From NCBI GenBank assembly GCA_021732995.1, contig JAKFWA010000040.1, forward strand, positions 62,001 to 126,000: DNA of 64,000 nucleotides, written 5' to 3'. Below, in pieces: positions 4,020 to 21,611 of this stretch. Origin of the DNA: Planctomycetaceae bacterium (GTDB lineage: Bacteria > Planctomycetota > Planctomycetia > Planctomycetales > Planctomycetaceae). Each line of letters opens with the position of its first letter. The stretch's first letter is position 1. The position numbers and the translations under genes were made by a program. Under the pieces are notes generated by a model. The model was not told the DNA's origin. It did no database searches and saw nothing but the letters and a program-made list of their open reading frames with translations.

Positions 4020-4085
4020 ATCGTTCACGCTGTCGCGTCCGGCAGAGTGTGCGAGACGTCCGCCAAGGCTGTGAATGAGAACCTT

Positions 4086-4535
4086 ATGACGCCGAATGAT
4101 TTCTCCTGGTGCATGTTTCAGTTCGAAGAGGAAGGCTGCCAGGTTCTGGTGCGCGCCTTGGACCGGATGCCGGACCAGGAACTGATCGACGCTCATCCTG
4201 TGCAAACCACGATCTCGTGGGAGTACACCCCGAACGAAGTAGGTTTCCCCGAAGCAGCTGAGTTGTTGCGGATCACGGAACTGGAAAACCTGCTGGTTGC
4301 GGGCGTGACTGAGGTCTCAGTCCTCACCTTAACCCTGACCGGCAACGGACGTCGCCAATGGTGGTTCTACGCGAGAGAAGTGGATGAATTCGTGGACGCT
4401 TTGAATCGGGCTTTGAGCGGTTATCCGCGCTTTCCTATTCAGATCAATACCTGCGAAGATGTGGGTTGGGAGTCCATGCACGAATTGATTGGCGTGGCCG
4501 AGTATGAGATCAACGAAGACGGCGATCTCGTTTGA
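4086..4535 (+). CDS. hypothetical protein, possibly DUF695-like
   Basis: A soluble, acidic protein of 149 residues with no signal peptide or membrane segment. The segment RRQWWFYAREVDEFVDALNRAL and the C-terminal DVGWESMHELIG resemble DUF695-type proteins of unknown function, but this is a weak recollection rather than a firm match. It begins 66 bases after the exporter gene and ends 16 bases before the acyltransferase gene, so the three may be co-transcribed. The ATG at 4086 is chosen because the upstream frame is not protein-like. No catalytic motif is evident. Confidence 0.65.
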   Translation: MTPNDFSWCMFQFEEEGCQVLVRALDRMPDQELIDAHPVQTTISWEYTPNEVGFPEAAELLRITELENLLVAGVTEVSVLTLTLTGNGRRQWWFYAREVDEFVDALNRALSGYPRFPIQINTCEDVGWESMHELIGVAEYEINEDGDLV

Positions 4536-4551
4536 GGAAATGGTGTGAGCG

Positions 4552-5496: not shown

Positions 5497-5522
5497 GTCG
5501 ATGTTGGCGAGAATGAGCTGCC

Positions 5523-5548
5523 GTTGTGGTCGGGAGACCGGCCACAAC
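5523..5548. repeat. GTTGTGG hairpin with GAGA tetraloop
   Basis: A compact palindrome just after the acyltransferase stop codon: arm GTTGTGGTCGG, loop GAGA, arm CCGGCCACAAC. It forms 11 pairs including one G-T wobble, closed by a GNRA-type loop. Sequence of the same kind occurs at 61689-61805 and, more loosely, at 11621-11653, so it looks like a dispersed element rather than a dedicated terminator. There is no U-tract. Confidence 0.55.
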
Positions 5549-5717
5549 CAGATAGCTCATGAAATCTCGAAGTTCGACGGGAATGAGGCTATCGTTAGCT
5601 CGTTCTGATGTCATGCGCAGCGTTCAGGCACAACCACAGGCGGTCGGCAGGTTTCGTCGGACAAGCCTCAGAGATCGAAGATGTCGGCTCGCAAGTGCCA
5701 GATCGCCAGGGAATTTC

Positions 5718-6719
5718 ATGTTTGTTGAGTGCACTTCACGCCGCCGCGGATTCACGCTGATTGAGCTGCTGGTGGTCATTGCCATCATCGCCGTGCTCGT
5801 GGCCCTCTTGCTACCGGCAGTACAGCAGGCTCGCGAAGCCGCGCGGCGAACTCAGTGCCGTAGCAACCTGAAGCAGATCGGAGTGGCCTTACAGAGTTAC
5901 CAGGAGACGACGACGCGGTTTCCGCCGGTCTCGGTGCTGTCGGCCACGACGACTCTCGATCCCTATTCGGCTCTCGCCCGGTTGTTACCGTTCGTCGACG
6001 GTGCGAGTATCGCTGATCAGATTGACTGGAACATCACGACGGGCATTGCTGGCAGCCCGGCAGCGGCCAAGACGCGAGTGCCCGTCTATATCTGCCCGAG
6101 CGAGATCAACGATCGTCCGCGCATCACGACCACGCTGGAACATTATCCGGGTAATTATTCGTTCAATCACGGTACCTGGTTCATCTTTGACCCGGTGACT
6201 CGGACTGTGGGTGATGGAGCTTTCGGTCCGAATCAGGCTTATGCGCCGCGTGATTTCACGGATGGCATGAGTAATACACTGGCAGCCGCCGAAACCAAGG
6301 CACATCAACCCAATTGGCGAGATAGTGGTGCTCCCAGTTCTCTCGGCGCCTTGCCACCGGCGGACCCATTCGCGCTGGCAGCCCTGTTTGGCGGCCCCTT
6401 CGATTCAACCGGCCACACCGCCTGGATTGCAGGTGACGTTCACCAGACAGGCTTCACGACGACATTTGAACCTAATCGCAAGTATCTTACATACGTCAGC
6501 GGCGGCGTGGAGTACCAAGTTGACCTCACCAGCACGAGAGCTGGTAGGTCGGCAACTGCCCCCGCTTATGCCTCCGTCACAGCACGAAGCTATCACGCTC
6601 AAAGTGTCAATGTGCTCATGATGGACGGCTCGGTACGCACTGTCGGAGACATGATCAGCCTCACCCTGTGGCGCGCCCTGGGCACCCGCAGCGGCAGCGA
6701 GGAAGCGAGTCTGGAATAA
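5718..6719 (+). CDS. DUF1559 protein with type IV pilin-like N terminus
   Basis: An exported 333-residue protein of the very large planctomycete DUF1559 family. The prepilin-type signal is GFTLIE (Gly11, Phe12, Glu16), followed by the hydrophobic helix [28 protein letters not shown]. The middle is beta-rich with CPSE and the usual AAAETK-type block. The C terminus carries the family block [13 protein letters not shown] and ends [15 protein letters not shown]. It is probably processed by a prepilin peptidase and placed at the cell surface; individual roles of these proteins are largely unknown. The ATG at 5718 sits directly before the leader. It converges on the NACHT gene downstream. Confidence 0.92.
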
Positions 6720-6904
6720 GCGTGGTCGAAGCCTTCACGCAGAGCGGCACGCTCAGAATCGGCTACAAGAAAGAGTCTTGAAATGAGCCGCCTGAAATGG
6801 CGACTTCCTTAGGTCTTGCGTTGCCTCAGGAACTCGAAAACGAGCTGTCGGATGCCCCATGCGAACTCGGTTCAGCATCTACGCATTCGCAATACAATCG
6901 CGAG

Positions 6905-9900
6905 TCAAAACCGTCGTAGAGCCTTCACAAGGCTCTTTGGAATACTCATGGATTGGTCTTGGCCAATTCGAATTTCGACAAGATTGCGCGCCCCATCCAG
7001 CGGGGCCAAGTCAGTAACCGGAGTATTGAAAAGATCCAGGACTCGGAGGTGGCTGAGACCTGCAAGGGGCGACACATCACTAATCAGCGTGTGGCGAAGA
7101 TCCAGCGAAGTCAAACGGACCAAATCAGCCAAGGGCGTCACGTCACTCACTTGAGTTCCGCCAAGGTCGAGTGATATCAAATTCTCTAGATCAGCCAGAG
7201 GCGCCAGATCGCTTACCATCGTGGTATTAAGGTCGAGGTTTTTCAGCCTGATCAGTGCCGCAAGCGGGCCGAGGTGGCTGATAGCCATACCACCAAGATT
7301 TAGCGTCTCGAGGCTCACCAAATCTTGCAAGGGCGAGAGATCTGTCGCCTTCGTAGTATTTAGATCCAGAAACGTCAGGGCATTTAAACGCATGAGCGGA
7401 GAGAGATCACTAACTGGCGTATGGCTGAGGCTAAGTGTGGTCAGTGCGGTCAGGTCCGACAGTTGAGATAGGCTACTAACTTGGGAGCCACTGAGATTGA
7501 GCGATCTCACGTCCTCAAATTCGGCCAATGGAGACAGGTCAACAATCTGCCGCCGGATACTTGACTGCCAACCCAAGCCTGGGAGTCCAAATGGCTCTTG
7601 GACCATACGCTGGACCGCGGGAATCGAAAGCGGATTCATTGCCTGCGAAAGCTCTTCAACTACTTTCGAGTTTGCGTCATCAAGAAAGAGCCGTAGAGTT
7701 CTCTGGGCGGTCTCAGTTCCAATTAGCCGCAAAGCGCGGATGCAAGCTGCGGACCTCGCCCCGCCGCGAAGCTTCTTTAGAAAAGGCACTGCCAAGTCGC
7801 CAGCGAATGCGAGGGCTTCCGCTTCAACCATAGATCGTGGTGGAAACAATCGCTTCAGTTGCTTGTCCAGCCATGTGCGCAACTTCGGGGCCAAGTCCAA
7901 GGCTACCGCACTGCATCGCAAGGCCATCAACAGTCGATGCTGAGCTTCCACCTCTTCTTGCGGGAGCTTTTTGCGACGTTGACCTTTCGGTATGCGTGTT
8001 CTTCGCACAACCTTGTCCGGCTGATACGACGCACCGAGGATCTTTTGAATGACCGATGTCGCGAAATCCCGCTTTTCGACGGCAACTGCAAACAGAATTA
8101 CATGCAACCATTCGGGCCTAGCCGCATTCGACGCCAGTTCCCCATCAGCTCCTTCCTCAGCCAAGCGGATACCGGCAAGGTATTCCTTGAACGTGTTGTG
8201 GACGAAGTCGAGCGTGCCCGGTGATTCTGCTGTCTTCGGCGCTGCCTCCCGCAACATGCCGCTCCGCTCAGCGAGCGTCCGAAGCACCACTGCGGCGTCT
8301 TCTGTTTTGCCACCGATACGTTCCAACCGCTCTTGCATCAGCCGCTCCGCGTCACCGCGGGCGATCACCGATTCCTGTTTCTTCACAACCATGTGATAGG
8401 CCAGGTCCTGCACGATCAGCTTCTTGTGCGGGTAGGTGAGATTGCGATACGGCTTAGGGAATGCATCAAGCTGTAAGCCACTCTCCAGTTCTCGGCGATG
8501 TAGCAACATGTGACAGAGAGCTTCTACTAGCTCACTCTGACTCTCGGGCAGTTTCTGCCGCCGTTCACGGTGCAGGGCGCAAATCATCGCGCACATCAGT
8601 GGGTTCGTGGCAAGGCGATTGATTGACGGGCTTTCTGCCAGTTTCTCCTTAAGCTCGTTTGCGAGCCTTTCCAGCGATAACTCTGCGGACGATACACCTC
8701 GCTTGGCCAATTCTTGCTCCACGGCCTCATGCCATTTGTCGATGAACTGGCTTTTATCAGTATTCGACATGGGATTGATTCTCGCCTCGCGAAAGCCCAT
8801 GCCCGCTAGCCAGCCTTCCTGTACCGCCTCGGGCCGTGTGCTGACCAGAAAGTAGTTCTCCGGAAACGCCTTCACTATCGCGTCAATCTCACCGTACAGC
8901 GTCGCGTCGCGGAACTCGCCAGGGATTTCATCTACCCCGTCGAGCAGCACGAATCCGCGCCCCGACGTAAGCACATCCCTGACCCAACCGCGTGGTGGAT
9001 GCCCGGCCTGCTTAGCAATGAGTTCCGGGAACTCGTCCGGCGACGGCAACTTGCCGCTCGCGCAATCACGAAGGCGAATGAGGAAGGGAATCCGTCCCTT
9101 CCAGTGTTGATTGCGAAGAAACTTGTCTCGGCTGCCAAGGTCAATTCCCTTTGATTCATCAATCGTGATCGTATTGAGTCCCCAGTATGCGGCATTCGTC
9201 TTGGCAAGCTTTGCGCGAAAGGAAACTGTCTGCGCGTGATCCGCGACAGAGAAACTGCCATCCACTTCGACTCCGTCTGGCACCGACTTAGATCCGAACG
9301 AGTATCCGCCAATATCAGCAGTGGCGTCCGCGGCCTGCATCGCCGCCCAGCGGAACAATGTGCTCTTTCCACCTCCGGCTTCACCACGAACGAGCAGCCG
9401 GCCCCCGTTCGAAGACAAACCACTCAGGACCGATTCGACCGACTGGAACGCACCGTCCTCCCCGTTATTGCCCTGGAGATTGAGTGAGACATATGCCACT
9501 GACAGTGCGTGCCGACGCGCCTCGGGCGGCAAGTCCACCCCAAACAGCTCCAGATAGTCCAGATTCCGTGTGACTGCGTGGCGATAGTCGGCTTCGAACC
9601 GTGCCGCCGCGTCATCCGTGGTACCCACAACGCGCCGCTCAATCCGCTCGGTGGCTTCGAGTACTTTGTCTAAGTCTTCATCGATATGGCTCAGCCGCGA
9701 GAGGCTTTCGGCCACGAAAGCCTCTTGGAATCGCGGTAGAGTGCTCGCAGTGCTGACGAGATATCGCACCGCCTCTTCCAGAGCGTGGTAATAGAAAACC
9801 AATTCTGCGGCGTTGAACGTGCCTTGCTCTACCGGTCGAGCGTCTCGCAAGGCGGTGGTCAACCGAGCGGGGTCGAGGTTTACTTGCACTAAGAACTCCG

Positions 9901-10249
9901 CGGAGACTCGGGCTTCGAGCGTCTTGACCAACTCCCCCGTGACGTCTTGAACACTGATCTGCCCGCTCTTGATCGCCTGCTCGAAGGTCGGCCGCAGGCA
10001 ATCAGCAATCTTGTCACCAATTTCTTCAAACAGCCGCGCTGCCTTTCGCTGCGCTCGGACGTCTTTGATCCTATCCTTGAAACAATCTACCAATCCACCC
10101 GCCAACTCGCCGGCCAGATCACCGTCCATCAGCCCCGTCGAGGCGGCTGCGCCTCCCACCCAACTCTTCGCCAAGAACTTGGCTCCGGCGACACCCACCG
10201 AAATGAGCAACGGGCTAAGCAACGGATCCACAAGCACCTCACCAATCAC
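6905..10249 (-). CDS. NACHT-LRR STAND ATPase (NLR-like)
   Basis: A 1114-residue signal-transduction ATPase with the three-part layout of NLR proteins. Residues 1-280 form a helical N-terminal region with a hydrophobic stretch near 8-35 and a coiled stretch at 190-210; I cannot name this domain. The NACHT module shows Walker A GEAGGGKST (289-297), Walker B VLLDGVDEI (434-442), a sensor-like STRPEA (470-475), NPLMCAMICALH (549-560), and FVHNTFKEYLAG (682-693), the motif usual at the end of such modules. A helical, HEAT-like stretch spans ~805-880. Eight 22-residue leucine-rich repeats begin at residues 905-1059, and a ninth is degenerate. Bacterial NACHT proteins include known anti-phage proteins; defence is an inference here. 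The start is GTG with no clear ribosome site. Codon use looks less GC-biased than its neighbours. It stands alone. Confidence 0.93.
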   Translation of the reverse strand: MIGEVLVDPLLSPLLISVGVAGAKFLAKSWVGGAAASTGLMDGDLAGELAGGLVDCFKDRIKDVRAQRKAARLFEEIGDKIADCLRPTFEQAIKSGQISVQDVTGELVKTLEARVSAEFLVQVNLDPARLTTALRDARPVEQGTFNAAELVFYYHALEEAVRYLVSTASTLPRFQEAFVAESLSRLSHIDEDLDKVLEATERIERRVVGTTDDAAARFEADYRHAVTRNLDYLELFGVDLPPEARRHALSVAYVSLNLQGNNGEDGAFQSVESVLSGLSSNGGRLLVRGEAGGGKSTLFRWAAMQAADATADIGGYSFGSKSVPDGVEVDGSFSVADHAQTVSFRAKLAKTNAAYWGLNTITIDESKGIDLGSRDKFLRNQHWKGRIPFLIRLRDCASGKLPSPDEFPELIAKQAGHPPRGWVRDVLTSGRGFVLLDGVDEIPGEFRDATLYGEIDAIVKAFPENYFLVSTRPEAVQEGWLAGMGFREARINPMSNTDKSQFIDKWHEAVEQELAKRGVSSAELSLERLANELKEKLAESPSINRLATNPLMCAMICALHRERRQKLPESQSELVEALCHMLLHRRELESGLQLDAFPKPYRNLTYPHKKLIVQDLAYHMVVKKQESVIARGDAERLMQERLERIGGKTEDAAVVLRTLAERSGMLREAAPKTAESPGTLDFVHNTFKEYLAGIRLAEEGADGELASNAARPEWLHVILFAVAVEKRDFATSVIQKILGASYQPDKVVRRTRIPKGQRRKKLPQEEVEAQHRLLMALRCSAVALDLAPKLRTWLDKQLKRLFPPRSMVEAEALAFAGDLAVPFLKKLRGGARSAACIRALRLIGTETAQRTLRLFLDDANSKVVEELSQAMNPLSIPAVQRMVQEPFGLPGLGWQSSIRRQIVDLSPLAEFEDVRSLNLSGSQVSSLSQLSDLTALTTLSLSHTPVSDLSPLMRLNALTFLDLNTTKATDLSPLQDLVSLETLNLGGMAISHLGPLAALIRLKNLDLNTTMVSDLAPLADLENLISLDLGGTQVSDVTPLADLVRLTSLDLRHTLISDVSPLAGLSHLRVLDLFNTPVTDLAPLDGARNLVEIRIGQDQSMSIPKSLVKALRRF

Positions 10250-10355
10250 GATGCAAGCGTTAGAAAAGTCACTATCCTCGAACCAAGACTAGCAATAATA
10301 CATGAAATTCTTGCCAGTGTCCTCAGCCTGCGCCCAGCGGGTTGGTTGTACTCTG

Positions 10356-10471
10356 ATCTCCCTTCCCAAGGGGGGAGATGGAGGCCGCAGGCCGGAAGAG
10401 GGGGTCTGGGTTCTTAAAGAGCTCGTTCTAGAGTCCACCCCCCTCCGACTCCCCCCTTTTTAAGGGGGGAG
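10356..10471. repeat. G/C-run inverted-repeat element
   Basis: Two hairpins flank a 70-base middle. The first has arms ATCTCCC (10356-10362) and GGGAGAT (10373-10379). The second is a perfect 10-pair hairpin, CTCCCCCCTT, loop TTT, AAGGGGGGAG (10449-10471). Inside, AGAGGGGGT and ACCCCCCT are also complementary, so the whole block can fold into one long structure. It lies between the NACHT start and the nucleoside hydrolase. Similar G/C-run palindromes are common between genes in planctomycetes as far as I recall. With about 100 bases on either side, this block accounts for most of the 357-base gap. Confidence 0.5.
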
Positions 10472-10606
10472 AGATTTTGGGGCAGTCACCGATTGACGCG
10501 GCGTTGAGTGGTTCCGGTTACGCTGCTCGGTTCCTCATCGGGGCAATTTTGATTATTGGTCGTTTTTTGGAACCGAACCAAGGATCTTCAACTCGAGGAA
10601 CGACCG

Positions 10607-11596
10607 ATGCGCGTCTCAATCTGGTGTTTGGTCGCTACGGCTTTAGCTGTGGTGGGACTGGTGGTAGGAAGCTCGAGCGTGATGGCCGCTGAGCCGGTGA
10701 AGATTATTTTTGATACGGACATCGAAGCGGACGTCGATGACGTCGGCTCGGTGGCGGTGCTGCATGCTCTGGCCAATCGCGGCGAGGCGGAGATTCTGGC
10801 GATGGGCGTGTCGGCCAAGAATCCGTGGTGTGCGCCGTGCCTGGATGCTCTCAACACGTACTTCGGGCGGCCGGACATTCCGATTGGCGTCGTGAAAGGG
10901 CCGGGGGCCGAGCATCCTTCCAACTACTGTCAGAAGGTCGCCGAAGAGTTTCCTCACAAGCTGAAGTCGACGGCTGACGCGCCGGACGCGGTGACCGTCT
11001 ATCGCAAGGTGCTGGCTAAGCAGCCGGATCAGAGCGTCGTCATCGTGACGGTGGGGTTCCTCACCAACCTGGCCAATCTGCTGCGTTCGGAAGGCGACGA
11101 TTTCAGCTCGCTCAACGGCAAAGACCTCGTGAAGCAGAAGATCAAGACGTGGGTCTGCATGGGAGCCCACCACCCGACCGGCAAGGAATGGAACATCATT
11201 CGAGACGCCAAATCGTCGGTGGAAGTCGGCAAGAACTGGCCCACTCCGATTGTCTGGAGCGGCTTTGAGATTGGTGTCGTCATTGAAACCGGAGCGGGCC
11301 TGTCGGTGCTGCCGAAGACCAGCCCGGTGCGTCGCGGCTACGAGCTCTACAACGGCCTGAAGAACCGTTCGAGCTGGGATCAGACGGCGGTGCTGTACGC
11401 GGTGCGCGGCTTGAATGGCGGGCTGAAGGACTTCTGGGATGTCGGCACGGGCGGGCGGTTTGAATTCGCCGCAGACGGCACCAACAAGTGGGTGGCCGAT
11501 GAGAAAAGCACTCAGTCGTACCTCATCAAGAAGATGCCGCCAGCGGAAGTGGCCAAGCACATCGAGGCGCTGATGCTCGAACAGCCGAAGAAGTAG
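10607..11596 (+). CDS. exported nucleoside hydrolase-like protein
   Basis: A 329-residue protein of the inosine/uridine-preferring nucleoside hydrolase fold. An N-terminal signal peptide runs to about residue 28 (cleavage near VMAAEP). The calcium-binding Asp cluster is visible as DTD (36-38) followed by D42, D44 and D45, a spaced version of the usual DTDxGxDD. Further family features are VTVGFLTNLANLL and WDQTAVLYAV. Known members cleave the N-glycosidic bond of ribonucleosides, so a periplasmic salvage role is plausible. The ATG at 10607 is preceded by GAGG about 9 bases upstream. A longer TTG frame is not favoured. Confidence 0.87.
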   Translation: MRVSIWCLVATALAVVGLVVGSSSVMAAEPVKIIFDTDIEADVDDVGSVAVLHALANRGEAEILAMGVSAKNPWCAPCLDALNTYFGRPDIPIGVVKGPGAEHPSNYCQKVAEEFPHKLKSTADAPDAVTVYRKVLAKQPDQSVVIVTVGFLTNLANLLRSEGDDFSSLNGKDLVKQKIKTWVCMGAHHPTGKEWNIIRDAKSSVEVGKNWPTPIVWSGFEIGVVIETGAGLSVLPKTSPVRRGYELYNGLKNRSSWDQTAVLYAVRGLNGGLKDFWDVGTGGRFEFAADGTNKWVADEKSTQSYLIKKMPPAEVAKHIEALMLEQPKK

Positions 11597-11620
11597 GGGT
11601 TGGGGATTAGGGGGTAGCGT

Positions 11621-11653
11621 TGTTGCGGCCGGTCTTCGACCGAGCCGCAGCAA
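11621..11653. repeat. CGGTC/GACCG hairpin
   Basis: A stem-loop just after the nucleoside hydrolase gene. Arm TTGCGGCCGGTC, loop TTC, and arm GACCGAGCCGCAGCAA pair with small bulges. The GACCGAGCC core also appears in the long palindrome at 61689-61805. It could act as a transcript-end hairpin, but no U-tract follows. Confidence 0.4.
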
Positions 11654-11656
11654 GTT

Positions 11657-11715
11657 GTAGGGCGGACAATCCTGTCCGCCGAGGAAAAAATGACGGACAG
11701 GATTGTCCGTCCTAC
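11657..11715. repeat. GGACAATCCTGTCC-type inverted repeat, copy 1
   Basis: Two arms of about 21 bases, beginning GTAGGGCGGACAATCC and ending GGATTGTCCGTCCTAC, are nearly perfect inverted copies separated by about 17 bases containing an A6 run. Each arm contains its own smaller palindrome (GGACA..TGTCC). It lies between convergent genes (nucleoside hydrolase and leuA). A closely related copy is at 25601-25649 and a decayed one at 21425-21451. Confidence 0.75.
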
Positions 11716-11754
11716 GGCAGAAATCGAACCGGCCACACTGGAACGCAACGAAAT

Positions 11755-13290
11755 CTACTTGGCGTTGGCTTTGCGGTCGGCCAGGGCGCGGTTCAGGGCT
11801 TTCAAATAGGCTTGAGCGCTGGCAGCCACGACGTCCGTGCTCAGGCCTTTGCCGTGGTAGTTGTGGTCGTCGATGGAGATTTCTACCGATACCTCACCTT
11901 GAGCGTCCTTGCCGCTGGAGACGCTCTTCACGTGGTAGTCTCGCAGTGTGGCGGAGACCTGCACGACGCGTTCGAGGGCGCAGAAGATGGCGTCGATGGG
12001 ACCATCGCCCGTGGATGCTTCGCGGATGACTTCGTCAGATCCGTTGCGCTTCATTTCCACCGTGGCGGTCGGCAAGACGTTCGTGCCGGCCAGTGTGTGG
12101 AAGTTGAGCAACTGCCACTCGTCGGTGCTTTCGCCGGTGTGGTTTTCGATCAACGCGACGATGTCGGAATCGAAAACGTCCTTCTTCTTGTCAGCCAGGG
12201 CGATGAACTCATCAAAGATTTTTTGGAACAGTTCATCGGTCAGCTCGAAGCCCAAATGCTTCACTCGGTCGCGGAAGGCGTGACGTCCGCTGTGCTTGCC
12301 GAGCACCAGGTTCGTCCCGACGTAGCCCACGTCTTCAGGCCGCATGATTTCATAGGTGCTGCGGTTCTGGAGCATGCCGTGCTGATGAATGCCCGCCTCA
12401 TGAGCGAACGCGTTCTGTCCGACGATGGCTTTATTGCGTTGCACCTGCATGCCGGTGATGCGCGAGATCAAGCGGCTGGTCGGGAACAGCTTCGGCGTGT
12501 TGATGTTCGTGTGGACTTTGTAATGGTCGCCGCGAGTGCGCAAGGCCATCACGATTTCTTCGAGAGCAGCGTTACCAGCTCGCTCACCCAAGCCGTTGAT
12601 CGTGCATTCAATCTGGCGAGCACCGGCTTCCACACCCGCGAGGCTGTTGGCCACGGCCAAACCGAGGTCGTTATGGCAGTGAGTGCTCAAGACGGCCTTG
12701 CCGATGTTCGGGACGTTCTGCTTCAAGTGGCGGATCACGTTGAAGAACTGGTCCGGAGTCGCATAACCGACCGTGTCCGGAATGTTGATGGTCGTCGCGC
12801 CGGCGTCGATCGCTTTCTCAACGACTTCGCAGAGGAAGTCCAATTCGGTGCGGGCGGCGTCTTCGGGGGAGAATTCGATATTGGGAATCAGGTCGTGGGC
12901 CCGCTTCACCATCTCAACGGCCGTCTGGACGATCTGATCTTTGCTCATCTTGAGCTTGTGCTCGCGGTGAATCGAACTGGTCGCGAGGAACACGTGCATG
13001 CGAGCTTTCTCGGCATGCTTCAAGGCCTCGCCCGCGCGTTGAATGTCATCGATCTTGCTGCGGGCCAAACCACAAATGGTGGTGCGGGAACCGAATTCCT
13101 GAGCGATGCGTTTCACGGCTTCAAAGTCGCCGGGCGAGGCAATCGGGAAACCAGCTTCGATGACGTCGACCCCCAGCTCAACCAGCGCTTTGGCAACTTC
13201 CAGCTTCTCGTCGGTTGTCATGCTGCAACCGGGAGACTGTTCACCATCACGCAAGGTTGTGTCGAAGATCGTAATCGCATCGCTGGACAT
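11755..13290 (-). CDS. leuA: 2-isopropylmalate synthase
   Basis: Catalyses the first committed step of leucine synthesis: acetyl-CoA plus 2-oxoisovalerate to 2-isopropylmalate. The protein has 511 residues, the usual length of the long bacterial form. The HMGL-type barrel opens with [13 protein letters not shown] (residues 9-21). The metal-binding [11 protein letters not shown] and the [14 protein letters not shown] block follow. A C-terminal LeuA dimer/allosteric domain begins around residue 390. It starts with ATG at 13290. The 5' region carries a leucine-rich leader peptide, an antiterminator and an intrinsic terminator, all annotated separately, so expression is probably set by attenuation. 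No other leu gene is adjacent. Confidence 0.97.
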
Positions 13291-13407
13291 CGAATTGCTC
13301 CTGTCGCGGCTGGGCCGCTCGTGGATTGAACCGGTTGGTTCAACGGAAAATCAACGGACCTGAAGAATCACTTGGGGACACGTGGCTTTTCTACGGGCAC
13401 ACAAAAC

Positions 13408-13439
13408 AAAAAAACCCTGAGGTGGAAGACCTCAGGGTT
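13408..13439 (-). terminator. leuA attenuator terminator
   Basis: On the minus strand a perfect 11-pair stem, AACCCTGAGGT / ACCTCAGGGTT with loop CTTCC, is followed directly by a T7 tract and then GTTTTG. This is a textbook intrinsic terminator. It lies 33 bases after the leader-peptide stop and about 118 bases before the leuA start. Placed inside the leader rather than after a gene, it is best read as the terminator of an attenuator. Confidence 0.9.
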
Positions 13440-13487
13440 GTGCAGACATCAAATTACAACCTGGGCCATTCCTCAGTTTTCGAGGTT
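13433..13487 (-). promoter_or_regulatory. leuA attenuator, alternative pairing segments
   Basis: Minus-strand segment 2, CAGGTTGT (13463-13456), can pair with segment 3, ACAACC(C)TG (13441-13433): eight pairs with one bulged C. This would tie up the 5' half of the terminator stem and act as antiterminator. Segment 1, AACCT (13487-13483), lies inside the leader-peptide codons and can pair with AGGTT of segment 2. A ribosome stalled at the Leu codons would cover segment 1 and favour the antiterminator. The complementarity is seen directly; the mechanism is inferred by analogy with enterobacterial leu and trp leaders. Confidence 0.7.
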
Positions 13488-13520
13488 CAGTAGCAGGGAT
13501 AGGCCGAGGACGTTGATCAT
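13473..13520 (-). CDS. leuL: leucine-rich leader peptide of leuA
   Basis: A 15-codon frame, MINVLGLSLLLNLEN then TGA, with six Leu among 15 residues and also one Ile and one Val. Leu codons are CTC, CTA, CTG, CTA, CTG, CTC; CTA should be uncommon in DNA this GC-rich, which would strengthen stalling when leucyl-tRNA is scarce. A purine-rich stretch (GAAGCGAAAAAG) precedes the ATG. A promoter lies about 35 bases upstream and an intrinsic terminator 33 bases after the stop. The gene is on the same strand as leuA. The symbol follows the enterobacterial leader by function and arrangement, not by sequence homology. Confidence 0.82.
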   Translation of the reverse strand: MINVLGLSLLLNLEN

Positions 13521-13554
13521 GCTTTTTCGCTTCAGAGTTTGCGGAACGCGAGCC

Positions 13555-13583
13555 ACTTTATTCCTGACACTGCAGACGGTCAA
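13555..13583 (-). promoter_or_regulatory. sigma-70-type promoter of the leuA leader
   Basis: On the minus strand TTGACC (13583-13578) and TAAAGT (13560-13555) are separated by exactly 17 bases. They match the housekeeping consensus at five of six and four of six positions. Transcription would start near 13548, about 28 bases before the leader-peptide ATG. Confidence 0.65.
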
Positions 13584-13674
13584 GCAGGTTCGGCCCGCTT
13601 GCGGTGATTCACCGAAAGCAGACGAAGCAATGCCGCCCGCATCGGCTTTGAGGAGTGCATCGATTCGATTGGCC

Positions 13675-15060
13675 TCAGTCCGTATGAGTGAGTTCGCTCA
13701 GAGTTTTGTCGCTGTGGTCGTTCCAGGGCGAGCCCTTAGGCTGGCCGATGCGCTGGCTGGAATAGATTCCGCTGTGACCGCTTGCCAGAAAGGCGACGCA
13801 GCAGCCCAACGCGTAGTACGGCGTGTGTGCGGAGCCGAACAGCTCGATCGCCATGATGGTGCTGGCCAGCGGCGTGTTGGTGGCTCCGGCGAAGAGAGCG
13901 ACAAAGCCCACGGCGGCCATCAGGTCGACCGGGGCGTTCAGAACTCCCGCCAGAGTGTTGCCGAGTGCGGCTCCGATGAAGAACAACGGCGTGACCTCGC
14001 CGCCCTTGAAGCCGAAGCCCAGCGTGATCGACGTAAAGAGCAGCTTCCACCACCAGCTCGCCGACTCTGCACCACCGGCTTTGAAGCAAGAGAGAATCGT
14101 GACATGCCCCGGCCCGGGAGCGTCGACTCCGAGCCCTAGATAGTCGCGTGTGCCGAGCACGTAAGTCAGCCCGATGATCAGCAGTCCTCCAACCACCGGT
14201 CTGAGCAGTGAGTTCGGCAGCAGGCGACGACTGAACGCAGTGATGCCGTGCGTCAGGTTGGCGAAGAGAGCACTTGTCAGGCCGAATGCAATCGCAGCGA
14301 CGGCAACCTTGCTGGCGAGTAACCAATCCAGCAAGGCGTGTCCGCCATGCTCAGGGAGAGGTGCGACTTCGTAGTGCGTGTGCTCAACGCCCCACACTGA
14401 ACACGACCAGTCTCCCAGCAGAGCGGCAATCAGGCAGGGGAAAAGAAACTCGTAACTCAAGCGCCCGATGGTCAACACTTCTATGGCGAATACAGCACCG
14501 GCCAGAGGCGTTCCAAACACGCCGCCGAAACCTGCGGCGATGCCTGCCATGAGCAGAAGTCGCAGGTCAGACGCCGAATTGAGTTGCTCATCCAGTTCGG
14601 TTACAGGACTGCCGGACGCGCGACGTGAGCTGAAGCCCAGACGTCGATAGAGACGAGCAAACGCGCTGGCGATGCTGCCTCCCATTTGCACGGCGGTGCC
14701 TTCTCGTCCGGCGGAACCGCCACCGAGATGAGTCAGCAACGTCGTCACCAGGATGAGCGGAGCCATGCGGCGCGGCACGCCTCCGTCGGGCTGATGAATC
14801 TGCTCGATCAGCAGGCTGTTTCCGCCTTCGGAGGTAGCTCCGACCTTGCGGTATATCGCCGCGATCATCAGCCCAATGGCCGGCAACGCGAACAACAGGG
14901 CAGGGAGCCGCCAATGCAGAGCCGTGACTTCACGCAAAGACCAAAGGAAGAACGCACACGCGCTGCCGGTGAAGACTGCGGGCAGTGTGACCAGCAGCAA
15001 TGCGCGAGTGGTCTCGGCGATGAGAGCTCGATAGTCGCGAAGTCTTCGGAGTAGCGGCAT
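13675..15060 (-). CDS. ClC-family anion transporter, probably fluoride type
   Basis: A 461-residue inner-membrane protein with about ten or more hydrophobic helices. ClC signatures are present: GREGT at residues 118-122 (gating Glu120), GFGGVFGTPLAGAVFAIE, and GGEVTPLFFIGAALG. The usual chloride-binding GSGIPE is replaced by a GGNSLLIEQ-type sequence, and GREGP by GREGTAVQMG. As I recall, both changes mark the CLC-F branch of fluoride/proton antiporters, so fluoride export is more likely than chloride transport. It begins 36 bases after proC on the same strand, suggesting co-transcription. I found no fluoride riboswitch before it. The ATG at 15060 is preferred to an upstream TTG. Confidence 0.88.
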   Translation of the reverse strand: MPLLRRLRDYRALIAETTRALLLVTLPAVFTGSACAFFLWSLREVTALHWRLPALLFALPAIGLMIAAIYRKVGATSEGGNSLLIEQIHQPDGGVPRRMAPLILVTTLLTHLGGGSAGREGTAVQMGGSIASAFARLYRRLGFSSRRASGSPVTELDEQLNSASDLRLLLMAGIAAGFGGVFGTPLAGAVFAIEVLTIGRLSYEFLFPCLIAALLGDWSCSVWGVEHTHYEVAPLPEHGGHALLDWLLASKVAVAAIAFGLTSALFANLTHGITAFSRRLLPNSLLRPVVGGLLIIGLTYVLGTRDYLGLGVDAPGPGHVTILSCFKAGGAESASWWWKLLFTSITLGFGFKGGEVTPLFFIGAALGNTLAGVLNAPVDLMAAVGFVALFAGATNTPLASTIMAIELFGSAHTPYYALGCCVAFLASGHSGIYSSQRIGQPKGSPWNDHSDKTLSELTHTD

Positions 15061-15096
15061 GTGCAACTTTCTGCGGTCTGCACTGCAGTCAAAACA

Positions 15097-15912
15097 TCAC
15101 TTGCCGAGTTCCGTGGCGCGGGCCGTGGCGGCGACGACGGCGTTCATAAGAATCCCGCGCAAGCCGCCTTGCTCCAGAGCGTGCAGGCCCGCGATGGTCG
15201 TTCCACCGGGGCTGGTGACCGCGTCCTTCAGAGCACCGGGATGCTCGCCGGTTTCCAGCACCATTTTGGCGGCTCCCAGCAAGGTCTGAGCGGCCAGCTT
15301 GGTAGCGACATCGCGCGGCAAACCAACACGGACGCCGCCGTCGCTGAGTGCCTCGATCATGGCGTAGGCATAAGCGGGGCCGCTGCCGGACAGTCCCGTA
15401 ACCGGATCGAGCAGCTTCTCATCGACGGCGACCGCGACGCCAACGGTCGACAAGAGTTTCTGGACCAGCTTGGCATCCTCAGTCGTGGCGTATCCGCCAA
15501 CAGCAAAACCAGACGCTGACGCCCCTACGAGACAAGGCGTGTTCGGCATCACTCGGACGAGCCGGCGATTGGATCCCAGACGCGCCGCAATCGCTTCCAG
15601 CTTGATACCTGCGGCAATCGAAATCACCAGGTGGCGTTCGGTGAGAGACGACGCGATTTCAGAGAGCACACCGCTCATCTGCTGCGGCTTAACGGCCAGA
15701 ATCACAATATCGGATTCAGTGACGACGGCCGTGTTGGATGTTGCTTGACGAGCACCCGTTTGAGCGGCGAACTGCGCCACCGCCGCCGGAACAACGTCGC
15801 TCGCGATGACTCGATCGGCCGTCGTGAACTGAGCCTTGATCAATCCGTTGGCGAGAGCGGTGGCCATCTTGCCGGCGCCGAGGAATCCGATTGAGTGAGG
15901 GGTACCGCTCAT
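15097..15912 (-). CDS. proC: pyrroline-5-carboxylate reductase
   Basis: Last step of proline synthesis: reduces 1-pyrroline-5-carboxylate with NAD(P)H. The protein has 271 residues, normal for the family. The N-terminal Rossmann motif is GFLGAGKMATAL. The C-terminal ProC domain carries GLSGSGPAYAYAMIEALSDGGV and the signature VTSPGGTTIAGLHALE. Cytoplasmic, with no signal peptide. It starts with ATG at 15912, divergent from the oxidoreductase gene across about 200 bases. The ClC gene follows closely. Confidence 0.97.
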   Translation of the reverse strand: MSGTPHSIGFLGAGKMATALANGLIKAQFTTADRVIASDVVPAAVAQFAAQTGARQATSNTAVVTESDIVILAVKPQQMSGVLSEIASSLTERHLVISIAAGIKLEAIAARLGSNRRLVRVMPNTPCLVGASASGFAVGGYATTEDAKLVQKLLSTVGVAVAVDEKLLDPVTGLSGSGPAYAYAMIEALSDGGVRVGLPRDVATKLAAQTLLGAAKMVLETGEHPGALKDAVTSPGGTTIAGLHALEQGGLRGILMNAVVAATARATELGK

Positions 15913-16113
15913 CTGTTTCTCCGAAAGGAATCTGTCTCTGCTTTCTGTGCAGAGGAATCGTCATCAGACACACATGATAGCAAGCTGGGGCGTTCTCAAA
16001 GCGTGGCGGGGTTCCTCATTCGTGAGATCTCAGCAGCATCTGCTTATACTTGGATGCGTCAGGTCAGGCTTGCATTCGAACCGTCACCTACCGCTTCATC
16101 CCGGAGAGCGAAC

Positions 16114-17454
16114 ATGAGTCACCGTCTGCATCGACGTAGTTTCCTGGCGACTTCCGCAGCGATCGCATCCACTTCGCTGCTTAGCGCCCGCAACTGGACG
16201 ATGGCTGCGGGAGCGAACGATCGGTTGCGAGTGGCCGCTGTAGGCGTGGGCGGCAAAGGCTGGTCAGACCTGACGGGCGTGTCCGCCAGCCCGAAGGTTG
16301 AGGTCACGTCGCTGTGTGATATCGACGAATCGATGGGGCACCTCGGCCGCGCAGCGGAAAAGTTTCCTCAGGCCAAGCGATACTCAGACTGGCGCAAGCT
16401 GCTGGATGACGAACGCGACTTCGACGCGGTGATTGTCGCGACACCGGACTTCATGCATGCACCAGTTGCGCTCGCCGCGATGCACCGGAAGAAGCATGCC
16501 TTCAGCGAGAAGCCCCTGACGCACACCGTCTTTGAAGCGCGTCAGATGGCTCTGGTTGCCAAGCAGAACAAGCTGGTGACTCAGATGGGCAACCAGATTC
16601 AGTCGCACGAGGCTTATCGCAGCGCGGTGGCGATCGTGCACGCCGGGCTGATTGGCAAGGTCAAGGAAGTCCATTCCTGGCAGGCTGGCAAGATGGGCTG
16701 GCGGCTGGTTGATGATCGACCCGCCGGGGCCGATGAGATTCCCGCCGGGCTGCATTGGGACAACTGGCTGGGTGTCGCTCCCGAGCGGCCCTTCAAGAAG
16801 CAGATTTATCACTCGTTCAACTGGCGCGCCTGGCAGGACTTTAGTAATGGCCAGCTCGGAGACTTTGGTTGTCATATTCTGGACCCGGTCTTCATGGCTC
16901 TGAAGCTGGCCGCGCCGTTGAAGGTTCAGGCCGAGGCCCCCGAGATCAACCGCGAAGTTTGGACGCTGTGGTCGAAGGTGCGTTACGAGTTCCCCAGCAC
17001 GGAACTGACACTTGGTCCCACGATCCCGCTGACGTGGTATGACGGCGATGGCAACAAGCCGAAGGCTGAATCGGTCGGGCTGCCCGCTTCCTACTCGCTC
17101 CCCGGATCAGGTTCGGTGCTTATCGGAGAAAAGGGCACGCTCGTGATTCCGCACGTGGCCGCGCCGAAGCTCTTCCCTGAAGAGAAATTTGCCAACGTGG
17201 ACCTGCCGAAACTCAGTTCCGTCGACCATTACGTCGGTTGGGCCGACGCGTGCCGCGGCGAAGGCAAAACGACCTCGCACTTCGGTTACGCGGGCAACCT
17301 GACCGAGACAGTGCTGCTTGGCACGATTGCCATTCGCCTGCCTAACCAGTCCCTGCATTGGGACGTGGATGCGTTGCGGTTCGCGAACTCCGAAGCCGCC
17401 ACCGCGCTGCTTAAGAAGCCTTATCGCAAGGGCTGGGAGCCGACCTGGATCTAG
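16114..17454 (+). CDS. exported Gfo/Idh/MocA-family oxidoreductase
   Basis: A 446-residue NAD(P)-dependent oxidoreductase with a twin-arginine-type signal (HRRSFLATSAAIAS near residues 5-18). The Rossmann motif is VAAVGVGGKGWSDL. The family block EKPLTHTVFEARQM supplies the catalytic Lys, and the C-terminal domain includes WNWLGVAPERP-like and SFNWRAWQDFSNGQLGDFGCHILD segments. Planctomycetes carry many such exported proteins, thought to act on sugars or glycosides; the substrate here is unknown. The ATG at 16114 has GGAG about 8 bases upstream. A longer in-frame reading lacks protein-like sequence. A 14-pair hairpin follows the gene. Confidence 0.93.
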   Translation: MSHRLHRRSFLATSAAIASTSLLSARNWTMAAGANDRLRVAAVGVGGKGWSDLTGVSASPKVEVTSLCDIDESMGHLGRAAEKFPQAKRYSDWRKLLDDERDFDAVIVATPDFMHAPVALAAMHRKKHAFSEKPLTHTVFEARQMALVAKQNKLVTQMGNQIQSHEAYRSAVAIVHAGLIGKVKEVHSWQAGKMGWRLVDDRPAGADEIPAGLHWDNWLGVAPERPFKKQIYHSFNWRAWQDFSNGQLGDFGCHILDPVFMALKLAAPLKVQAEAPEINREVWTLWSKVRYEFPSTELTLGPTIPLTWYDGDGNKPKAESVGLPASYSLPGSGSVLIGEKGTLVIPHVAAPKLFPEEKFANVDLPKLSSVDHYVGWADACRGEGKTTSHFGYAGNLTETVLLGTIAIRLPNQSLHWDVDALRFANSEAATALLKKPYRKGWEPTWI

Positions 17455-17477
17455 GCGGTCCACTATTTGATTCTCGA

Positions 17478-17517
17478 TTGAGCAAGGTGAGCGTTCTGTT
17501 CCACTCACCTTGCTCAA
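17478..17517. terminator. bidirectional hairpin between convergent genes
   Basis: Arms TTGAGCAAGGTGAG (17478-17491) and CTCACCTTGCTCAA (17504-17517) form a perfect 14-pair stem with a 12-base loop. It lies between the oxidoreductase (plus) and a DUF1501 gene (minus). There is no clear U-tract on either strand. A transcript-end role is likely from its position and stability. Confidence 0.65.
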
Positions 17518-17547
17518 GGCGAATGTCCTCAACGCCGAGTCGCACTC

Positions 17548-19041
17548 TCAGGCCAGAATGTCCTTGATGATGTGCCCGGCAACGTCGGTCAGGCGGAATT
17601 GGCGGCCGTTGTATTTGTAGGTCAGCTTTTCGTGATTGAGACCCAGCAGATGCAGGATGGTCGCGTGCAGATCGTTGAGATGTACTCGGTTGACCTCGGC
17701 GCGATAGCCGATTTCATCTGACTCGCCGTAGTCCGTACCACCTTTGATACCGCCACCGGCCAGCCAGGCACACAGCAGATGCGGGTTATGATCGCGGCCC
17801 GGCTTGCCGCCGGTTTGAGCGATCGGCAAGCGACCGAACTCACCGCACCAGATCACCAGCGTCTCATTCAGCAGCCCGCGTTCGGCGAGGTCGCCCAGCA
17901 GCGCGGCGACCGGCTTATCGGTTTCGCCCGCGAACTGACGATGATTGCCATCAATATCATTGTGTCCGTCCCACGAGCGTTGATTCTCCATGCCGCCCGA
18001 GTAGATCTGCACGAAGCGCACGCCACGTTCGACCATGCGGCGAGCCACCAGACACTGCTTCGCAAAGTGGTCGCACTGTTCGTCGCCGATGCCGTACAGG
18101 TCTTGAATGTGCTTCGGCTCGGACGCCAGATCGATCGCTTCCGGCGCTGCGGCCTGCATGCGGTAGGCGAGCTCAAAGCTCTCAATACGGGCAGCAAACT
18201 CAGAATCCGCGGCATGCTCTTCGCGATGCAGTTCGTTGAGCTGCTTGAGCAGATCCAATTGCGTCCGCTGCGTCTGGTCCGTCATGTCCGCCGGGCGATA
18301 CAGATTGTCGATCGGGTCGCCCTGCGGCTTCAGATGCGTTCCCTGAAACACTCCGGGCAGGAATCCGGCGCTCCAATTCGCGGCGTGTCCCTTCGGCAGC
18401 CCGCGACCTTTCGGGTCGCTCATCACGACGAAGGCCGGCAGGTTCTTGCTTTCGCTGCCGAGGCCATAAGTCACCCATGAACCGACGCACGGGAAGCCCA
18501 TCCGCGCGATGCCAGTGTTGATCGCGAACAGCGCGGGCGAGTGATTGTTAGATTCCGTGAATCCCGACCGGATGAACGCCATCTTGTCGACGTGCTTGCC
18601 GAGGTGCGGGAAGATCTCGGGCACCATCTTGCCGCATTCGCCGCGGGGCTCGAACTTGAACGGCGACTGCATCAGGTTGCCGACCGCGTCCTTGAAGAAA
18701 CCGGTCGTGTTCTTGAAGTCCGGGTCGAACTCGCGAATCGATTTGCCGTTCCACTTGGTCAGTTCAGGCCGGTAGTTCCACGTGTCTGCCGGAGACGGAC
18801 CGCCGTTGATGAAGATCCAGATGACGTGCTTCGCCTTGCCGGGAAAGTGCGGCTCGCGCGGGGCGAGTGGGTTGAGCGATCGGCCGCTGAGGGCTTCTGC
18901 GGCACTGGCGGCTCCGAGCATGCCCTCATCGTTCAGCAGCCCGGTCAGCCCGAGCATTCCCAGTCCGCAACCGGCTTTCGCCAGCAGGCTGCGTCGAGAC
19001 AAACCGTTCAGCAGATTCTCAGACAGAGGTCCGGGATTCAT
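17548..19041 (-). CDS. DUF1501 Tat-exported protein (first copy)
   Basis: A 497-residue member of DUF1501, a family with an alkaline-phosphatase/sulfatase-like fold abundant in planctomycetes. The twin-arginine signal is LSRRSLLAKAGCGLGMLGL. Family blocks are VIWIFINGGPSPADTWNYRPEL, AFIRSGFTESNNHSPALF, GSWVTYGLGSESKNLPAFVVM, LVIWCGEFGRLP and GRDHNPH. The C terminus ends in the usual LTDVAGHIIKDILA. Such genes usually follow a DUF1553/cytochrome-type partner; none is present here. A strong AGGAG lies before the ATG at 19041. Biochemical function is unknown. Confidence 0.92.
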   Translation of the reverse strand: MNPGPLSENLLNGLSRRSLLAKAGCGLGMLGLTGLLNDEGMLGAASAAEALSGRSLNPLAPREPHFPGKAKHVIWIFINGGPSPADTWNYRPELTKWNGKSIREFDPDFKNTTGFFKDAVGNLMQSPFKFEPRGECGKMVPEIFPHLGKHVDKMAFIRSGFTESNNHSPALFAINTGIARMGFPCVGSWVTYGLGSESKNLPAFVVMSDPKGRGLPKGHAANWSAGFLPGVFQGTHLKPQGDPIDNLYRPADMTDQTQRTQLDLLKQLNELHREEHAADSEFAARIESFELAYRMQAAAPEAIDLASEPKHIQDLYGIGDEQCDHFAKQCLVARRMVERGVRFVQIYSGGMENQRSWDGHNDIDGNHRQFAGETDKPVAALLGDLAERGLLNETLVIWCGEFGRLPIAQTGGKPGRDHNPHLLCAWLAGGGIKGGTDYGESDEIGYRAEVNRVHLNDLHATILHLLGLNHEKLTYKYNGRQFRLTDVAGHIIKDILA

Positions 19042-19302
19042 CAGCAGCTCCTGAGAACAAAGGTTTTTCTGAATGAGAAAAACCTCAGGATTGGAAACTC
19101 ATCTTCCAAGAAATCTTCACAGCGTTCAGAACTGTATCGGGTTAGCCTCGGGTAACTCCAGAAAGATGGTCCGGAAAGTGGGCCGTCGATCTAAGCGGAA
19201 GTCAAGAAATCACTTAGACAGACCTCAGAATGAACAGCGGGCGTCGAACTTTTGATTCGCCTTCGGCATCCTGCTGAATCGCTGCTCCGGGATTTGCTTC
19301 GC

Positions 19303-21399
19303 ATGACCACCGACATGGATGTCGCTACTACGCCTACGAGATCGGGGATTAGAAACCGGTTCCATGCCTGTGCCCTCTTAGCGGCATTGACCATCCTGTA
19401 CGCGACGATCACGCGGCTCGTCTTACTGTGTGGTGACGACGCGTTCGGCGAACTGTCCTTGTGGGACACGTTGCGAGTCTTCCTCACCGGTCTGCGATTT
19501 GATGCCTTCATCGCGGCGGTCTTCGTACTGCCATTCCACGTCCTGGTCAGCTTCTGTGGAACGGGGGGCACATACAGCCGCCCGGCCCGATGGCTGATTG
19601 AACCTACCATCCTGCTGGGCACTCTGCTGCCGCCGCTATTTGCCGTTGTCGAGGTGTTGTTTTTCAACGAGTTCGATTCGCGGCTGAATTATATTGCGTT
19701 CGAGTATCTGGTTTATCCCACGGAAGTCTGCTGCAACATCTGGCAGTCGTACCATGTGATACCATTGGTGGCCGTCGTGGTGGCCCTTGGCGTTTTGAGC
19801 TACCTGGGCATTCGGTTGCCGGTGTGGCGGATTCTCACGAAGCCCGTGCCGCATGGTAACCGCTGGGCCAGTTGGCTGAGCTGGTCGGCGGTGTGCCTGG
19901 TGCTGTGGCTGACGCTCAACATGGGAGCGATGCAGGTCACGGCCAATCGCATTGCCAATGAGTGTTCGGGCAACGGTGCTTACACGTTCGTCGCCAACGC
20001 CTGGTCGTGCCGCTTTGAATTCGACTATTACTACATGACGGTGAACGATGAGGTCGCCGACAATCGGCTGCGTGACCTGCTGGTGCGCGATCAGGATGAG
20101 TGGCATCGCGAATCGCCGAACCCGATCGATCGCACGGTGGACCAACAGGACGAACAACGGAACTTGAACGTTGTGATCGTGCTGGAAGAGAGCCTCGGTT
20201 CCGACTTTGTCGGTGTCTTGCAGGCGGAACGCGCAGAGAAAACGTTCGGCGAGTATGGCTCTACGCTGACACCTTTCCTGGACAAGCTCAGCGAAGAAGC
20301 ACTGCTGTTCGACAACTGGTTCGCGACCGGCAATCGCACGGCCCGAGCTCTCGAAGCCGTGATGACGTCGCTGCCGCCGATTCCCACGGAATCCATTCTG
20401 AAGCGCGACCATTCCGACAATGTTTTCACGATCGCACACGTGCTCGAAGAGCGTGGCTACGAGCGCATCTTCCTGACCGGTGGTCGAGGTCTCTTCGACG
20501 GCGTGAAATCGTTCATGACGAGCAACGGCTTCAATCGCTTCGTCGAGCAGAAGGATTTTACGAATCCGACCTTCACCAACGCCTGGGGCGTGTGTGATGA
20601 AGACCTCTTCCATAAGGGCCTGGAAGAAATGGACGCGCTGCACAAAACTGGCAAGCCGTTCCTGGCCACTCTGCTGACGGTGTCCAACCATCGACCTTAC
20701 ACCTATCCCGATGGCCGCATTCCGCACCCGTCGTCGCAACGTCGGCGCGAGAACGCCGTTGTCTATGCCGATTGGGCCCTGGGTCATTTCTTCGAGAAGG
20801 TGCGATCAAAGCCCTACTACAAGAACACACTGTTCGTGGTGATGGGTGATCACGGAGCTCGCGTGTATGGCAGCCAGCTCTTCCCGATGAAGTCGTACCG
20901 CGTGCCGGTGGTCTTCATGCTGCCCGATGACGAAAACCTGTCCGGCGGCAAGCGCTGTTCGACCCTGGCCTCGTCGCTGGATATTGCCCCGACGATCCTC
21001 GGCGTGCTGGGTGGCGACTACCGCTCCACGTTCTTCGGCCGCGACGTCCGCACGATTGACCCGGACACTGGCTACGCCGTCATGCAGCACAATCACGACG
21101 TCGCCATTCTGTCTCACGAGGCAGGCACCGAAGCCGGTCACCTCGGCCTGACGCTGCTGGATTCAAGGAACTCAGGCTGGCGCAGCGAATACAACCCGCG
21201 CACGTTCAAGCTGACCGAGAACCGCATCGCCAGCGGTAACCAGGTCGAGCTCGTCGCCGCCTTCTTCCAGACCGGCTACCGGCTCTACTACGCCGAACAG
21301 TGCGTCCCCCAAACCATGATGGAAGACGACACCCCCACCGCCGCAGGTCCGAAGCTAGCTACCAGCAAATCGGAACCCATCCTGACGAAGCGAAATTAG
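19303..21399 (+). CDS. LtaS/OpgB-like membrane sulfatase-fold transferase
   Basis: A 698-residue inner-membrane enzyme. Five hydrophobic helices fall in about the first 200 residues, followed by an extracytoplasmic sulfatase-fold domain opening with NLNVVIVLEESLGSDF. The catalytic Thr is probably in GNRTARALEA; further metal-site blocks are SNHRPYTYP and FVVMGDHGARVYGS. This is the layout of lipoteichoic-acid synthase and of phosphoglycerol or phosphoethanolamine transferases, which move a phospholipid head group onto a glycan or polymer. In a Gram-negative-type cell a glucan or LPS-decorating role is more likely than LTA synthesis. The ATG at 19303 is used; another at 19315 is possible. Confidence 0.85.
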   Translation: MTTDMDVATTPTRSGIRNRFHACALLAALTILYATITRLVLLCGDDAFGELSLWDTLRVFLTGLRFDAFIAAVFVLPFHVLVSFCGTGGTYSRPARWLIEPTILLGTLLPPLFAVVEVLFFNEFDSRLNYIAFEYLVYPTEVCCNIWQSYHVIPLVAVVVALGVLSYLGIRLPVWRILTKPVPHGNRWASWLSWSAVCLVLWLTLNMGAMQVTANRIANECSGNGAYTFVANAWSCRFEFDYYYMTVNDEVADNRLRDLLVRDQDEWHRESPNPIDRTVDQQDEQRNLNVVIVLEESLGSDFVGVLQAERAEKTFGEYGSTLTPFLDKLSEEALLFDNWFATGNRTARALEAVMTSLPPIPTESILKRDHSDNVFTIAHVLEERGYERIFLTGGRGLFDGVKSFMTSNGFNRFVEQKDFTNPTFTNAWGVCDEDLFHKGLEEMDALHKTGKPFLATLLTVSNHRPYTYPDGRIPHPSSQRRRENAVVYADWALGHFFEKVRSKPYYKNTLFVVMGDHGARVYGSQLFPMKSYRVPVVFMLPDDENLSGGKRCSTLASSLDIAPTILGVLGGDYRSTFFGRDVRTIDPDTGYAVMQHNHDVAILSHEAGTEAGHLGLTLLDSRNSGWRSEYNPRTFKLTENRIASGNQVELVAAFFQTGYRLYYAEQCVPQTMMEDDTPTAAGPKLATSKSEPILTKRN

Positions 21400-21424
21400 T
21401 GGACCATCCAAACTGGAACGACAA

Positions 21425-21451
21425 GTAGGTTGGACAAGATTGTCTTACCTA
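21425..21451. repeat. GGACAATCCTGTCC-type repeat, decayed copy
   Basis: GTAGGTTGGACAAGATTGTC followed by TTACCTA is an imperfect palindrome related to the elements at 11657 and 25601. It appears to be a single arm with diverged pairing. It lies about 25 bases after the LtaS-like stop codon. Confidence 0.45.
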
Positions 21452-21611
21452 AGACCTGTCGTCGACTCCACTCGTCAGCACAACCCGAGGACGGGATGGC
21501 ACTGCAAACTGCCAGTGCGAGGCATTCGCATTTTGAACAGCGCTAGTAGCGGATGGCCCCGCCTGGCCGTAGTCGCAGGGGGCTTCGCAAGGCGCCAGCA
21601 ACGGTGGGCGG

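Follow-up and report, generated by a model that had tools for sequence, protein, structure and literature searches.

We describe here a leader that precedes leuA, the gene for 2-isopropylmalate synthase, in a 64,000-nucleotide (nt) stretch of a Planctomycetaceae bacterium genome (GCA_021732995.1, contig JAKFWA010000040.1, positions 62,001 to 126,000), referred to below as the window and numbered from its first letter. The observation of a complete leader before leuA is confirmed, for a promoter, a 15-codon leucine-rich frame, an antiterminator and an intrinsic terminator were all found on the minus strand 5' to the gene, as the initial annotation had listed them. Judging from sequence comparison, it is very likely that this leader acts as a ribosome-mediated transcription attenuator tying leuA expression to charged leucyl-tRNA, and the earlier interpretation of a leucine-dependent attenuator is supported. 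The reading is based on the parts themselves, their conservation with leuA, terminator covariation, a partly covarying antiterminator, rare-codon enrichment and pathway-matched codons. The short upstream frame holds a codon run matched to the pathway, a predicted intrinsic terminator lies between frame and gene, and a candidate antiterminator that would exclude the terminator is present, with weaker evidence than for the terminator itself. The device is best read as common in these planctomycetes, together with a putative sister attenuator for isoleucine.

The leader peptide frame, MINVLGLSLLLNLEN, occupies 13473..13520 on the minus strand and comprises 15 codons, with its stop codon TGA at 13475..13473. 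Six of the codons specify leucine (CTC, CTA, CTG, CTA, CTG, CTC), and the earlier count of six leucine codons, two of them CTA, agrees with the codons read at 13520..13473. Codons 9-11, CTG-CTA-CTG (13488..13496, minus strand), are the likely control codons, as indicated by ribosome-footprint folding and by the CTA bias described below. Downstream of the frame, the antiterminator 5' arm GGCCCAGGTTGT (13456..13467, minus strand) pairs with ACAACC-CTG... (13441 onwards) through eight pairs and one bulge, with more pairs past a mismatch, and the eight-pair option noted at the outset is accordingly found with its bulge included. The antiterminator 3' arm ACAACCCTGAGGTC (13428..13441, minus strand) shares bases with the 5' arm of the terminator, an intrinsic hairpin at 13413..13439 (minus strand) identified by scanning and comparative covariation. 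This hairpin has 11 perfect pairs and the loop CTTCC, the highest pair count among 24 terminator-like sites in 4000..23900, and is followed by the T-rich tail TTTTTGTTTT (13403..13412, minus strand). The perfect 11-pair stem of the initial annotation stands, while two letters of its tract of seven T are the final bases of the stem, leaving five T directly after it. On the other side of the frame, a sequence scan gave a -35 hexamer TTGACC (13578..13583, minus strand) and, after a 17-nt spacer, a -10 hexamer TAAAGT (13555..13560, minus strand), the whole site (13583..13555) agreeing with the consensus at 9 of 12 positions; taken alone, it is at chance level, with 3 such sites in 4000..23900 against a shuffle mean of 4.7.

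The putative controlled gene, at 11755..13290 on the minus strand, encodes a protein of 511 amino acids that matches NCBIfam TIGR00973 at 727.6 bits (cut-off 598.7) and NF002086 likewise above cut-off, which bears out its identification as leuA. The leader stop lies 182 nt from leuA, with the terminator in between. This geometry bears on a different role for a translated leader, namely that it raises leuA translation by reinitiation while termination is incidental. A proposal of reinitiation at leader genes does exist, and planctomycetes are one of the groups in which its pattern was seen, but in the accessible part of that paper it is made for leaders very near their gene (PMC4833913); with such a distance and a strong terminator intervening here, we regard reinitiation as exceedingly unlikely.

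The leader is widely retained in front of leuA. Our main criterion was a short frame with at least five Leu codons just 5' of a terminator-like hairpin, applied to a class-level sample of 114 leuA upstream regions (counted without the partial matches G432, G433 and G445 and without the second copy in G316). Such a frame and hairpin were found in 92 of the 114 regions, or in 83 with at least six Leu codons, and frames with at least five Ile codons in 0 of 114. Within the window's own family, 27 of 28 leuA loci have the leader, the window counted; Fisher values, which take no account of relatedness, are given no weight. The joint absence of Leu run and terminator from relatives, which had been named beforehand as grounds for giving up the attenuator, is not what these regions present. 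A second set consisted of the window plus 78 of 80 loci (L058 and L063 were dropped, the 5' end of leuA being missing). Up to 500 nt upstream, 58 of these 79 regions have a hairpin with a T tract, and in 53 of the 58 a frame with at least five Leu codons ends 5-60 nt before it, compared with 10 of 526 hairpins elsewhere under narrower controls (frames of at most 26 codons, as against at most 35 in the cases). When a single rule was used, reaching up to 700 nt, 60 of 79 leuA regions passed versus 27 of 1530 other hairpins, taken from the same loci and from 20 kilobases of the window. Of these 27 passing controls, at least 7 themselves resemble leu leaders (L031, L073, L074, L076, L077, L079, L084). 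These counts back the earlier contention that chance joint occurrence of the parts is unlikely. Five further Isosphaeraceae-type loci of the 80-locus set have both frame and hairpin, the T tail being weaker, and Singulisphaera acidiphila DSM 18658 (L046) is a named carrier, again with a weak T tail.

The promoter, too, gains from comparison. TTGAC is present upstream of the leader frame, at a distance of up to about 110 nt, in 69 of 91 class leaders versus 8.7% of single-base shuffles, and 55 of the 91 have a promoter site in which at least 9 of 12 positions match, versus 4.6% of shuffles. A model built from the leaders, the window's included (R1), recovers the window leader at E 5.7e-11; across 392 phylum genomes it finds matches in 123 at E<=0.01, a figure that includes opposite-strand hairpin echoes and unchecked downstream genes and is not a phylum-wide frequency.

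Comparison with relatives also addresses a simpler explanation, in which the hairpin is the terminator of the chloride-channel gene upstream of leuA and the Leu-rich open reading frame (ORF) arose by chance. That gene runs in the same direction and has its stop at 13675, 236 nt ahead of the hairpin, as a gene-end terminator would allow. A search with the chloride-channel protein, however, covering up to 2 kilobases (in some cases less) upstream of leuA in 78 relatives, gave no match, while frame and hairpin persist, and the largest frames upstream of the relatives' leuA lie on either strand. Because that protein is unmatched in the stretches searched in relatives and the leader stays with leuA, the hairpin is hard to read as a chloride-channel terminator. 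The gap between leader stop and hairpin also varies little (21-53 nt in 87 of 92 class leaders), and a promoter-like site lies between the chloride-channel gene and the hairpin. We consider this explanation most unlikely and reject it.

Some loci show other arrangements. In L031 and L059, leader and terminator stand several hundred nt farther upstream of leuA, with extra sequence between (an open frame in L031). Gammaproteobacterial records, mostly Woeseiaceae-labelled (L073, L074, L076, L077, L079, L084), also hold a Leu-rich leader and a terminator; in the first five the leader precedes a frame of about 330-360 codons beside leuA, by eye probably ilvC, and the L084 leader was judged from peptide and position only. 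A Leu-rich frame and hairpin precede leuA in L082 (Kiritimatiellia-labelled) and L053 (Vicinamibacteria-labelled) as well, both outside Planctomycetota according to the record titles. The titles of L011, L014, L015 and L069 (Candidatus Kuenenia, Bdellovibrionales) are ill-matched to leuA genes 60-73% identical to the window's, and these records may be mislabelled metagenome-assembled genomes.

For the RNA structure, 37 of 56 leaders were aligned (A2), mostly those with the antiterminator arm in a common register; because lineages with other arms were excluded from the covariation counts, these counts favour the structure. In the 37 leaders, 96.8% of the terminator cells are paired, both-side changes occur at 7 of 11 pairs, and no shuffle matched the alignment on 4 of 5 measures; the terminator covaries strongly. 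The antiterminator is 84.7% paired, versus 10.8-70.5% for slid versions, with both-side changes at 4 of 9 pairs, and on the five measures it was matched by 8, 67, 0, 379 and 22 of 500 column shuffles, a modest signal of covariation. In 53 of 92 leuA leaders, and in 26 of 35 leaders of cimA (a related gene treated below), no more than 5 of 100 shuffles equal the antiterminator duplex in energy. Where a lineage has another arm, for instance CGCCTCAGG or GCGAGGTCCGGGGAACG, that arm still finds its partner in the terminator arm of the same leader; a convincing antiterminator was not found in L043 and L082. In most aligned relatives the leader stop codon falls within the antiterminator arm; 67 of 92 class leaders end in TAG. 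Since the arm usually overlaps the stop codon, completion of the peptide would tip the balance toward termination, and a ribosome stall at Leu codons toward read-through. In the window, the relatives' TAG reads CAG and the frame stops earlier, at TGA.

Of 193 Leu codons in 27 family leaders, 30.6% are CTA, compared with 0.0% of 870 in the family leuA genes; in six window ORFs the share is 3.6% of 388. The peptides of the common planctomycete leaders are mostly 15-25 codons long. The full window leader was folded without a ribosome and under an assumed ribosome footprint, placed at the stop codon or with its A-site at codon 7, 9, 10, 11 or 13. It folds as antiterminator with the A-site at codons 9, 10 and 11 (CTG, CTA, CTG) and as terminator with the ribosome at the stop codon. 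The favoured mechanism would run as follows. Transcription would start near 13548, and the 15-codon leader would be translated as it is transcribed. When Leu-tRNA is ample, the ribosome would reach the stop codon and cover the antiterminator 5' arm, the terminator would form, and transcription would end before leuA. When Leu-tRNA is scarce, the ribosome would presumably stall at CTG-CTA-CTG and leave 13467..13456 free; this arm would then pair with the terminator 5' arm, and RNA polymerase would read into leuA.

Further evidence comes from a second gene. R1 has another match in the window genome, on the same contig (C22:392-474, E 4.3e-6), and the gene that it precedes at this locus outside the window (C22:392-2127, L002) is the citramalate synthase gene cimA (TIGR00977, 649.3 bits, cut-off 450). 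cimA is a paralogue of leuA in the isoleucine route. Its leader in the window genome, MRVVPSLISNVCDIAPGRVVVIIRITEG, is rich in Ile and Val and is followed by a terminator, with an unremarkable antiterminator duplex that 19 of 100 shuffles equalled. We sampled 66 of 116 cimA-bearing genomes, 30 with loci and 36 picked by hand. Frames with at least five Ile codons were found in 27 of 66 cimA upstream regions and frames with at least five Leu codons in 2; leaders with at least four Ile codons occur at 35 of 66 cimA versus 1 of 114 leuA loci, and at 21 of 27 cimA loci of the family. Because Ile frames precede cimA and Leu frames leuA, the leader codons track the end product of each pathway.

This tracking also bears on the possibility that the leader is driven by a protein, by a riboswitch-like ligand or by a T-box reader of tRNA and not by translation of Leu codons. 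Any binder could in principle drive a terminator/antiterminator switch, yet codon identity tracks the pathway between the paralogues, and translation is therefore the simplest explanation. Moreover, an Rfam scan of the window at gathering score gave 0 matches, Leu_leader and T-box included, and below threshold the leader has two matches only, both to unrelated families. We consider such a binder very unlikely, and a known RNA family identity for the leader was rejected for lack of an Rfam match at gathering score.

Leaders of this type were also sought at other biosynthetic genes, in upstream regions only, where genes deeper in an operon could escape. None of 20 ilvB upstream regions (one locus from the window genome) has a frame with at least five Ile, Leu or Val codons singly, and 1 of 20 has at least eight of the three together; none of 20 relatives' trpE regions has at least two Trp codons, and none of 20 hisG regions, likewise from relatives, at least three His codons. 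The one ilvB region, in a family relative (L150), has the frame MWAVWLEILVHSPVLAITIALFS, with 10 Ile, Leu and Val codons, before a hairpin, and may be chance or a leader. HisG (PF01634) is unmatched in the window genome (G000), though 20 of 20 relatives searched have one, which may reflect an assembly gap or real absence. We think it probable that this class has a matched pair of attenuators at paralogous genes for committed-step synthases, one for Leu at leuA and one for Ile at cimA, with none, in the regions sampled, at trpE, hisG or ilvB (the doubtful ilvB locus apart). Such a pair would mean transcription-translation coupling at leuA and cimA.

Several observations weigh against attenuation by leader translation. 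Of the leuA regions, 22 of 114 fail the leader filter, and frames rich in other residues are found as well: at least five Arg codons before 9 of 114 leuA genes, at least five Ser before 11 of 66 cimA genes and at least five Val before 7 of 66. Among eight leaders of the same length, differences number 58, 136 and 109 at codon positions 1, 2 and 3; because a third-position excess is absent, leader translation is unproved by the substitution pattern. In the folds with the assumed footprint, the A-site at codon 7 or 13 also gives the terminator at full length. Without a ribosome, the antiterminator forms first, yet the full-length fold is the terminator; before the terminator 3' arm is made, the antiterminator forms also at codon 7. 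The covariation of the antiterminator is modest, with 67 of 500 shuffles equalling its count of both-side changes and 22 its covariation score, and the duplex falls outside the best 10% of shuffles in 28 of 92 leuA leaders. Finally, the window departs from most aligned relatives in that 5 nt separate its stop codon from the antiterminator arm downstream; a ribosome on the stop would therefore leave part of the arm exposed.

Leader-peptide attenuation is a classical mechanism. The enterobacterial leuL-leuABCD leader (Rfam Leu_leader) has tandem Leu codons including the rare CTA and alternative antiterminator and terminator structures directly before leuA. The planctomycete leader is alike in its Leu codons including CTA, its antiterminator and terminator, and its place before leuA, whereas the common planctomycete design puts the stop codon inside the antiterminator arm and its peptides have no obvious likeness to the enterobacterial one. 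The actinobacterial LEU element shares the Leu-codon run upstream of leuA, but is described, in the part of the source available, as a pseudoknot in which the base stem joins this run to the ribosome site of leuA, and classical attenuation was judged unlikely for it (PMC1262725); the intrinsic terminator and antiterminator of the planctomycete leader set it apart from that description. According to partly accessible sources, a leucine-rich attenuator peptide has a similar role in branched-chain amino acid synthesis in Staphylococcus aureus, of another phylum (PMC5794164), and the Corynebacterium ilvB upstream-ORF motif likewise combines a branched-chain-codon leader, a terminator and an antiterminator (PMC11109978); that motif controls ilvB, in contrast to the planctomycete ilvB regions above.

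As the initial annotation had supposed, no planctomycete attenuator with a leu or ile leader is reported among the open-access matches listed, although the attenuation survey of Lopatovskaya et al. (2010) may hold one. A 2010 terminator survey leaves planctomycetes unmentioned in its main text (PMC2965389), as do non-coding RNA surveys in their accessible parts (PMC11109978, PMC8632094). The mechanism is known, and its occurrence in Planctomycetota is apparently unreported among these matches.

Leader-peptide attenuation requires a translating ribosome close behind RNA polymerase, and its operation here, if true, therefore implies coupling at leuA and cimA. Planctomycetes were once argued to keep transcription and translation apart (2014 work, as given in the accessible parts of PMC5394234 and PMC5287468). 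Conserved attenuators offer a direct genetic test of transcription-translation coupling in the phylum, and the leuA/cimA pair a natural codon-swap experiment, in which related enzymes with a shared control design have codons matched to differing end products.

Elsewhere in the window, a large ORF at 6905..10249 (minus strand) has a P-loop-like GEAGGGKST motif and C-terminal leucine-rich repeats, resembling NLR/NACHT-type proteins by eye only.
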